A stretch of 64,000 nucleotides of DNA from an uncultured Pelagibacteraceae bacterium. GTDB lineage: Bacteria; Pseudomonadota; Alphaproteobacteria; Pelagibacterales; Pelagibacteraceae. The DNA lies in assembly GCA_902581405.1 (NCBI GenBank), contig CACHOJ010000006.1, positions 1 to 64,000 of the forward strand. The letters run 5' to 3'. The notes beneath the pieces were generated by a model. That model was not told the origin of the DNA. It saw nothing but the letters and a program-made list of their open reading frames with translations, and did not search any database. Shown here piece by piece: positions 31,619 through 34,473 of this stretch (position 1 is its first letter; the number at the start of each line of letters is the position of its first letter). The translations under genes were made by a program, and so were the position numbers.

Positions 31619-32749
31619 ATGAAAAAAATTGCAATAATTGGTGGAGGAATATCGGGGTTATATTTTGCAAATATTTTAAATAGTGAAAAAAATTTTGAAT
31701 ACAAAATATTTGAAAAAAAAAATAATTTTAATTTCCAAGATGGTTATGGAATTCAACTATCAGTAAATAGTATTAAGTTATTGAATAACATAGGATTTAA
31801 AAATCTACCTGCATCTGAAGTTAGCTTTCCGTCAAAAGTGAATTTCATACAAGCAAATAACTCTAAAAAAATTTGCGATATAGACCTTACACAATTTAAT
31901 GATCCATTAAATCGATACACAACACTAAAAAGATCAACATTATTAGAATTTTTATTTAAGAATGTGCCTGAAAATCAGATTAAATTTAATTCAAATATAA
32001 CAAAAATAGAAAAGGCGAATGGCTTCAGAATTACTTTGGATGAAAATACACATGAGGAATTTGATTATTTGATAATTGCTGATGGTATTTTTTCAAAAAC
32101 GAAGTCATTGATATTGAATGATATTACAAATCCAAAATATAACTTTAATGTCGCTCTTAGAGGTAAGTTAAGGGGTGATTATGGTAGTAATATTTCTATT
32201 TATATGGCATCAAACAGTCATTATGTGATCTATCCGATAAACCAAAATAATGAATATAATTTTGTAGCTATCATAAAAAAAAAATTATCATCAGATGAGC
32301 TAAGAAATTATGATTTATTTAAATCTAATGAGTTTTTAAGCTCTTTAAGATCAAATTTACAAAAAACATCACAAATAAGCTTTGGAAATTTAAGTGAATT
32401 AAAATCTTTTCCTGTTTACGTAAGCAGCAAATTTCCGAGTTTAAATGAACAAAATATATTTTTATCCGGTGATGCTCTGTTCACTTTCCCACCATCATTT
32501 GCTCAAGGTGCGTCCCAAAGTATTGAGACCGCAAACGATATATTAAAAAGTATTTTAAATGGTTCAACTGAATACTATCAAAAAAGAATTGAAAATATTT
32601 CCTCTATAAATGACAAATCAAAATTTAACCATTTTTCATTCCATTTATCAAATCCTTTAAGTGTCTTTATTAGAAATAATATTTTGAAGTTTCTCTCAAA
32701 AAATAAAACATTTCTTGAAAATTATTTGGGTAAAATTTATAGATCTTAA
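31619..32749 (+). CDS. FAD-dependent monooxygenase (aromatic hydroxylase-like)
   Basis: A 376-residue flavoprotein of the p-hydroxybenzoate hydroxylase superfamily. It has the N-terminal GxGxxG site MKKIAIIGGGISGLYFANIL, a DG-type motif in EFDYLIIADGIFSKTKSLI and the second FAD motif NIFLSGDALFTFPPSFAQGASQSIETANDIL (about residues 280-310). Possible roles include ubiquinone-ring hydroxylation or salicylate-type hydroxylation; the sequence does not decide. It starts 4 nt after mutY and shares the TTAA palindrome stop with ccrM. Confidence 0.8.
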   Translation: MKKIAIIGGGISGLYFANILNSEKNFEYKIFEKKNNFNFQDGYGIQLSVNSIKLLNNIGFKNLPASEVSFPSKVNFIQANNSKKICDIDLTQFNDPLNRYTTLKRSTLLEFLFKNVPENQIKFNSNITKIEKANGFRITLDENTHEEFDYLIIADGIFSKTKSLILNDITNPKYNFNVALRGKLRGDYGSNISIYMASNSHYVIYPINQNNEYNFVAIIKKKLSSDELRNYDLFKSNEFLSSLRSNLQKTSQISFGNLSELKSFPVYVSSKFPSLNEQNIFLSGDALFTFPPSFAQGASQSIETANDILKSILNGSTEYYQKRIENISSINDKSKFNHFSFHLSNPLSVFIRNNILKFLSKNKTFLENYLGKIYRS

Positions 32750-33819
32750 TTTGTAGGTCTTAGTCTTTGTCGTAAATCATCAATTGGCTTTAAAGAATTT
32801 CCAGATTTATAATGCCAAAATGTCCATCCATTACAACTTTCTGCACCAATAATTTTTGCTGCCACTTTATGGATTGATCCTTCTGATTGTTGATATTTTA
32901 TACTACCATCTATCATAATTTTTGCATTTACTTTTTTCTTTTGGTCATAAATTTCTGTTCCAGGTTTAATCAGACCCATTTCAACTAATGATCCGAAAGG
33001 AATTCTTGGTTTAGTTCTGTTATTTTGTAAAGTATCTAGATATTCATCTTTTATGATATTTGTATTCTCTAATCTTTTCTTAGCAGCATCGAAATAATAT
33101 TTTTCTTTTTCAATTCCAAAATAATTTCTACCTAATTTTTTTGAAACAACAGCTGTAGTACCGGATCCTAAAAATGGATCCAAAATGAAATCATTTTTGT
33201 TTGATGAAGCTAATATTATTCTATGAATTAAAGACTCTGGCTTTTGTGTAGAATGAACTTTTTTTCCATTTTTTTTTAATCTTTCTTTTCCATTACAGAT
33301 TGGGAAATTCCATGTGGATCTCATCTGCAGGTCATCATTTAAACATTTTAATGATTGATAATTAAAAGTATATTTGGATTCTTCGCTTTTTGAGGCCCAA
33401 ATAATCGTTTCATGTGCATTGGTAAACCTCGTTCCTCTAAAATTTGGCATTGGGTTATTTTTATTCCAAATTACATCATTTAGTATCCAAAAACCCAGAT
33501 TTTGGATCGTAGTACCAACTCTAAATATATTGTGGTAGCTACCTATAGCCCAAATTGTTCCATCCTTTTTTAAAATTCTTTTACATTCTTTTAACCACTC
33601 AAAAGTAAATTCATCATAGCTTTTAAAACTTTCAAATTGATCCCATTTATCATTAACAGCATCCACTTTAGATCTATCCGGTCTTCTTAATTCTTTTTTT
33701 AATTGAAGGTTATAGGGAGGGTCAGCGAAAATAAGATCAAAAGTTTCGTCAGGAATTTTTTTTAATTCCTTTAAACTGTCTCCATTAATAATTTTATTTT
33801 TTAAAGTTTTAACACTCAT
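32746..33819 (-). CDS. ccrM: Cell-cycle regulated adenine DNA methyltransferase (CcrM type, GANTC)
   Basis: A 357-residue beta-class N6-adenine methyltransferase. Motif IV LIFADPPYNLQL (about residues 30-41) precedes motif I DPFLGSGTTAVVSKKLGRNYFGIE (about residues 215-238), the CcrM order. The C-terminal roughly 95 residues (GSLVEMGLIKPGTEIYDQKKKVNAKIMIDGS...SCNGWTFWHYKSG) form the extra domain seen in CcrM. The length is that of CcrM (358). There is no restriction partner, so it is a solitary regulator of replication and transcription. Two GANTC sites lie in its own upstream region. Confidence 0.93.
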   Translation of the reverse strand: MSVKTLKNKIINGDSLKELKKIPDETFDLIFADPPYNLQLKKELRRPDRSKVDAVNDKWDQFESFKSYDEFTFEWLKECKRILKKDGTIWAIGSYHNIFRVGTTIQNLGFWILNDVIWNKNNPMPNFRGTRFTNAHETIIWASKSEESKYTFNYQSLKCLNDDLQMRSTWNFPICNGKERLKKNGKKVHSTQKPESLIHRIILASSNKNDFILDPFLGSGTTAVVSKKLGRNYFGIEKEKYYFDAAKKRLENTNIIKDEYLDTLQNNRTKPRIPFGSLVEMGLIKPGTEIYDQKKKVNAKIMIDGSIKYQQSEGSIHKVAAKIIGAESCNGWTFWHYKSGNSLKPIDDLRQRLRPTN

Positions 33820-33836
33820 TTTTTAAATATTAATTA

Positions 33837-33853
33837 GACTCCAGAGAAGAGTC
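33837..33853. promoter_or_regulatory. Two GANTC sites in inverted orientation upstream of ccrM
   Basis: GACTC-cagagaa-GAGTC places two sites for the expected CcrM target GANTC 17 nt upstream of the ccrM ATG, as 5-bp inverted arms with a 7-nt spacer. In Caulobacter the ccrM promoter also contains GANTC sites and is shut off by methylation. Autoregulation here is inference. Confidence 0.55.
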
Positions 33854-33894
33854 CGCGTCAACCTGTGATTGAATTATTTTGAGACTACTTGTTG

Positions 33895-34473
33895 CTATTT
33901 TTTTTTAAGACTCAATATGTTGTGTATTGGACTGAATGTTTTGCGATGAAACCTAGTTATTCCATATTTTCTAATAGCGTTAGTATGATCTTTGGTTCCA
34001 TAACCTGCATTTGAGTCCCATTTGTATTTTTTGAAACTTTCTGACATTTTGAGTATCAGTTTATCTCTTGATACTTTTGCAACAATTGATGCTGCAGATA
34101 TCTCTTTTATTTTTTGATCTCCTTTGATTACTGTTTTTGTAATGTAATTATTCAAATCTGGGGATTTATTTCCATCAACAAGTACTAAATTTGGTTTAAC
34201 TTTTAGTTTTTTTATTGCTCTCTTCATAGCTAATAGACTTGCATTTAATATATTAAGTCTTTCTATTTCTCTAATTGATGCTGATCCAATAGCCCAAATA
34301 GAATTTTTTTTTATATACTTAGATAATTTTTCTCTCTCAATTTTTTTCAGTTTTTTAGAGTCTTTAATTTCTTTTTTATTTATTTTAGGATTAAATATAA
34401 CCGCTGCAGCATAAACTGGACCAATCAAACTACCTCTACCAACTTCGTCAACACCAGCAACAATTTTTTTCAT
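33895..34473 (-). CDS. rnhB: Ribonuclease HII
   Basis: A 192-residue enzyme that nicks DNA at embedded ribonucleotides. The metal-binding residues are in VAGVDEVGRGSLIGPVYAAAVIF (Asp, Glu), NLVLVDGNKSPDL and EISAASIVAKVSRD. GYGTKDHTNAIRKYGITRFHRKTFSPI is the family C-terminus. Its ATG overlaps the stop of the 45-residue ORF upstream (ATGA), so translation is coupled. A 75-bp gap with the GANTC pair separates it from ccrM downstream. Confidence 0.95.
   Translation of the reverse strand: MKKIVAGVDEVGRGSLIGPVYAAAVIFNPKINKKEIKDSKKLKKIEREKLSKYIKKNSIWAIGSASIREIERLNILNASLLAMKRAIKKLKVKPNLVLVDGNKSPDLNNYITKTVIKGDQKIKEISAASIVAKVSRDKLILKMSESFKKYKWDSNAGYGTKDHTNAIRKYGITRFHRKTFSPIHNILSLKKK

Follow-up and report, generated by a model that had tools for sequence, protein, structure and literature searches.

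The two GANTC sites just upstream of ccrM in this uncultured Pelagibacteraceae genome are likely part of the ccrM promoter itself, as judged by their fixed positions relative to predicted -35 and -10 elements; their inverted-repeat form is not the point. With one CcrM site in the promoter spacer and another on the -10 element, we consider it fairly probable that this promoter is responsive to methylation, most likely via GcrA. More tentatively, we propose that it may serve as a GcrA-read, replication-coupled switch in SAR11 bacteria lacking CtrA, and that the published bablM "RNA" may be that promoter and not an RNA.

The GANTC pair and the predicted ccrM promoter

The window, i.e. the whole stretch of 64,000 nucleotides that was analysed, has uncultured Pelagibacteraceae as its nearest named records. 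The features around the ccrM start are:

32746-33819, minus strand: ccrM, GANTC adenine methyltransferase, 357 aa (domains and closest solved relative)
33816-33885, minus strand: match to Rfam RF01784, "bablM sRNA" (49.6 bits, gathering score 38)
33833-33861, minus strand: predicted ccrM core promoter, TTGACG-N17-TCTAAT (TTGAC in 76/76 genus sequences, TAAT near-invariant)
33837-33841, minus strand: GANTC site 2 (GAGTC), over the first two -10 bases (GAGTC in 75/76)
33849-33853, minus strand: GANTC site 1 (GACTC on the coding strand), in the -35/-10 spacer (GANTC in 70/76)
33858-33872, minus strand: imperfect inverted repeat TCAATC-ACA-GGTTGA, overlapping the -35 element, with TTCAATC at 33867-33873 (genus conservation)
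33895-34473, minus strand: rnhB (RNase HII), upstream neighbour of ccrM on the same strand

The ccrM product contains N6_N4_Mtase and RAMA domains and its closest solved chain is Caulobacter CcrM (6pbd, E 5e-139), which bears out the first-pass annotation of the gene as a GANTC methyltransferase. The position and layout of the pair were also as claimed there: GACTC (33837-33841), 7 nt and GAGTC (33849-33853) lie 17 nt upstream of the ccrM ATG at 33819, within the 75-nt rnhB-ccrM spacer (33820-33894; coding strand, TTCAATCACAGGTTGACGCGGACTCTTCTCTGGAGTCTAATTAATATTTAAAAAATG). The pair is not, however, the only short inverted repeat in the spacer, as had been stated, since TCAATC-N3-GGTTGA is a second one.

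On the coding strand, TTGACG and TCTAAT, with 17 nt between them, give 10/12 matches to a sigma-70 promoter, an assignment made by sequence only. A promoter scanner passed over this arrangement, since it accepts nothing but A as the second base (position 2) of a -10 element and ccrM has C there. By reading, the ccrM spacer holds no CtrA-type TTAA-N7-TTAA box. About 13 nt (33820-33832, minus strand) separate the predicted -10 element from the ATG, which would leave the ccrM transcript with a very short leader; in the second SAR11 family (f2) this distance shrinks to about 7 nt.

The second repeat includes TTCAATC, which is near-invariant among 76 distinct genus sequences (T at -31 in 97%, other positions in 100%) and not present in the upstream regions compared from family f2. 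As TTCAATC-N4-GTTGAC (33858-33873, minus strand), an almost unvarying segment in the genus, it overlaps the -35 element. Genus g173 carries GATTCAA-N7-TTGAATC between its GANTC sites, TCAA-N7-TTGA being common to both. TTCAATC-N4-GTTGAC is a possible operator of some regulator.

Conservation and genomic distribution of the sites

The initial estimate that GANTC occurs by chance once per 370-380 bp was too generous to chance. The window contains 91 sites in 64 kb, or one per 703 bp, compared with 175.6 +/- 12.8 in shuffled sequences, and GANTC is about 2-fold depleted relative to base and dinucleotide composition in the window and in genomes G000 and G012. Because of this depletion, only about 0.001 GANTC pairs at ≤12 bp are expected in the 75-bp spacer, and the pair is indeed notable against chance. 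Elsewhere, five pairs at 10-13 bp occur over ~700 kb of the window's genome; such pairs are therefore not unique genome-wide, and conservation, not rarity, carries the case. Genome-wide reads covered about 0.70 Mb (~63%) of the window's genome, itself 78% complete, and the complete genome of a congener, G012.

The proposed comparison of the spacer across SAR11, with counts that are raw genome or sequence tallies ignoring kinship, upheld both sites among the 76 distinct upstream sequences of the genus, in 70/76 (site 1, GANTC) and 75/76 (site 2, GAGTC). The middle base of site 1 is A in 37, C in 26, T in 4 and G in 3 of the 70 GANTC-bearing sequences, the distance between the sites is 11 or 12 bp, and site 2 follows the -35 element as TTGAC-N15-GANTC in 29/29 genus genomes. 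Site 1 thus tolerates any middle base and a 1-nt shift in spacing while keeping its G, A, T and C, which argues for selection on GANTC and not on a palindrome. The emphasis originally placed on the inverted repeat was accordingly misplaced: only 26/76 pairs are palindromic through the middle base, and hence fully complementary.

A search of the order with TTGACN{2,6}GANTCN{6,7}GANTC found one match per genome in most genus genomes and matches in 140/197 order genomes, whereas the reversed-pattern control gave mostly zero. In family f2, TTGAC-N14-GANTC precedes ccrM in 19/19 genomes. Other genera of the window's family have a shifted pair, a single site or none upstream of ccrM, although GcrA is kept in all 22 tested; the arrangement is therefore not indispensable.

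GANTC lies inside a predicted -35/-10 promoter in many other alphaproteobacteria as it does in SAR11. Among 68 alphaproteobacterial ccrM upstream regions from outside the order, TTGAC stands exactly 14 nt before GANTC in 26, from 20 families (15 nt in two further regions and 13 nt in one). No TTGAC-N14-GANTC occurred on the reversed and complementary sequences of the 68 regions, and composition shuffles of a 41-sequence subset gave ~0.1 matches on average. All 26 matches continue with A-NNN-T after GANTC, i.e. A and T at -10 positions 2 and 6, which the search never selected. Within the 20 nt after TTGAC, 45/68 regions have at least one GANTC and 24/68 at least two. Two genomes, G069 and G196 (loci L200 and L201), carry GANTC downstream of a CtrA-like TTAA-N7-TTAA box, and are in this respect Caulobacter-like and unlike SAR11. 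The spread of the 14-nt layout suggests that the Caulobacter ccrM arrangement may not be typical.

Genome-wide, no signal for a fixed promoter position was seen among 144 intergenic GANTC sites, and in both genomes examined ccrM was the only gene preceded by the TTGAC-GANTC-(-10) arrangement. Counting intergenic against coding sites, another check that had been proposed, showed higher intergenic density in G012 (1.67 versus 1.19 per kb) and in the sampled part of the window's genome (1.49 versus 1.34 per kb), both with a simple ORF caller. Of 209 orthologous upstream regions in two genomes, 16 carry GANTC in both (2.9 expected). Part of these are shared divergent spacers and tRNA T-arms; the conserved GANTC upstream of some genes is nothing more than such a T-arm (GTTCGANTC).

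The clearest shared regions besides ccrM are those of umuDC and recA. Upstream of umuDC (G000:C1:19057-19084, L168), three GANTC sites lie at 11 and 12 bp, an array found in 27/61 genomes, all within the genus, and absent in family f2; in G012 an SOS-like box, GTTC-N7-GTTC, stands at the umuDC start codon. The array was discarded as a replication origin, the GC-skew minimum of G012 being at 1.29 Mb, about 270 kb off. Upstream of recA (G000:C1:22305-22335), ATGATTC follows an SOS-like box in 26/61 genomes, again all within the genus, and the site in G000 and G012 reads TGATTCG, the Caulobacter GcrA-type extended motif. CGATTCG- or TGATTCG-type GANTC sites also stand before a gene for an 827-aa helicase-like protein, near GAGAAC motifs (G012 1183955; G000:C2:77013).

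GcrA, CtrA and the proposed mechanism

GcrA is the established m6A reader of alphaproteobacteria and binds methylated GANTC and sigma-70. The window's genome encodes GcrA (113.9 bits, cut-off 26.9); 49 N-terminal residues align to the Caulobacter DNA-binding domain and the C-terminal part gives a sigma-binding match, both domains aligning to Caulobacter GcrA (7ye1). GcrA was detected in 54/61 relatives, many of them incomplete, and the layout is present without a GcrA match in a few SAR11 genomes, e.g. G038 (99% complete) and G041. Across the class, GcrA presence and the layout showed no association (26/29 versus 32/39 genomes, Fisher p = 0.5) in a test without power. As to CtrA, none of the four Trans_reg_C (OmpR-type) proteins of the complete congener G012 reaches the NCBIfam cut-off (best score 133.5, 350 needed, with a model made for Rhodobacterales), in agreement with Brilli et al., who reported ctrA missing from Pelagibacter (PMC2877005).

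In the mechanism that we propose, a sigma-70 promoter just upstream of ccrM would hold two CcrM sites, the first between its -35 and -10 elements and the second over the -10 element. CcrM would methylate both sites, replication would leave both hemimethylated, and their methylation state would alter promoter use, most likely via GcrA, so that ccrM expression would be coupled to replication without CtrA. GANTC is methylated in situ in SAR11, and SAR11 methylomes display an ori-ter GANTC gradient that fits a delay in the methylation of newly made strands (PMC9516812). The ccrM gene of G012, at a distance of about 190 kb from the GC-skew minimum, would therefore turn hemimethylated early in replication.

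Caulobacter, which like SAR11 encodes both GcrA and CcrM, offers two comparisons. Its GcrA/CcrM-dependent sigma-70 promoters ctrA P1, mipZ and ftsZ contain methylatable GANTC, as does SAR11 ccrM; Caulobacter GcrA binds methylated GANTC and, at ctrA P1, where GANTC is next to the -35 element, covers -35 to -10 of the fully methylated promoter (PMC3667746). In SAR11, by contrast, the target would be ccrM itself, and the two GANTC sites lie one helical turn apart with the second over the predicted -10 element; neither site fully matches the consensus YGAKTCK (site 2, G-GAGTC-T; site 1, G-GACTC-T, coding strand), which was derived from Caulobacter (PMC7987155). The Caulobacter ccrM promoter concerns the same gene and likewise has GANTC sites nearby, and its expression is linked to methylation state ("most probable" according to PMC3973325), ccrM being activated by CtrA and transcribed only from hemimethylated DNA (PMC2217572). 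As that promoter needs CtrA, and no CtrA turned up when the OmpR-type proteins of G012 were scored, the comparison is only partly apt.

The idea of ccrM self-regulation thus stands as plausible, given the conserved sites and the methylation of GANTC in SAR11 (PMC9516812), but its direct carry-over from Caulobacter does not, CtrA being absent in the complete congener. The feedback may be positive, by analogy with ftsZ and mipZ, which methylation activates in Caulobacter (PMC3708114), or negative, as reported for Caulobacter ccrM (PMC2217572). GcrA as the reader protein, the transcription start site and promoter activity at ccrM are what we infer here.

Alternative readings and implications

Given the detection of GcrA in so many relatives despite incomplete genomes, and its role as m6A reader of the class, we think it unlikely that RNA polymerase or a different repressor responds directly to methylation at this promoter, giving negative feedback without GcrA. 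Such a mechanism would suit sites that overlap the -10 element and spacer, as well as those layout-bearing SAR11 genomes that gave no GcrA match, and would parallel the transcription of Caulobacter ccrM from hemimethylated DNA only (PMC2217572). A reading of the GANTC pair as a hairpin terminator for rnhB draws on the single terminator-like stem of 7 pairs reported by a scanner, but the stem has only 3 G-C pairs, its tail (AATTAATATT) is a poor U-run, and termination there would stop transcription right before ccrM; with full arm complementarity in just 26/76 sequences, we regard this reading as practically ruled out by the arm counts. Least credible is a chance pair without function, kept by descent: similar pairs do exist elsewhere in the genome, but the conservation across families of sites whose middle base is free and whose place in the promoter is fixed, together with the minute expectation in the spacer, speak against it.

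The same DNA segment has been published as bablM, a candidate RNA between rnhB and a DNA methylase from a 2009 P. ubique screen, in which stem 1 showed no mutations and stem 2 a few compatible ones; that description of a two-stem RNA nowhere mentions GANTC or CcrM (PMC2704228). A structured RNA with two hairpins 5' of ccrM, acting as a leader or sRNA, would accord with this publication, with the RF01784 match above the gathering score and with a modest folding z-score of -1.6. The second stem, however, is the GANTC pair, and its core arises because GANTC is self-complementary, any two copies pairing at four of five positions. Among the genus sequences, pairing at variable positions equals the column-marginal expectation (N.N 32 versus 32.0; flanks 67 versus 67.0 and 60 versus 59.9), i.e. 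there is no covariation beyond chance; stem 1 is invariant and so uninformative in this regard, and seven natural variants with a lost site break or weaken stem 2 without compensation. Moreover, RF01784 matches the genus sequences tested but none in the other genera, families and orders tested, whereas TTGAC with GANTC spans the class, in some cases as a single GANTC that can form no stem, and the predicted -35/-10 elements fall within the supposed RNA. A DNA promoter would explain the bablM segment better than an RNA, which we consider very improbable.

Read as a promoter, the published RNA family bablM gains a DNA-based re-reading, with the general caution that any self-complementary methylation site will mimic an RNA hairpin when present twice. 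For SAR11, which is abundant in the ocean, methylomes suggest late CcrM action, yet these bacteria appear to lack CtrA, the Caulobacter timer of ccrM. Having the sites of CcrM itself at fixed core-promoter positions would provide a concrete timing route in a very small free-living cell-cycle circuit, and their conservation suggests that CcrM marks help control CcrM's own production.
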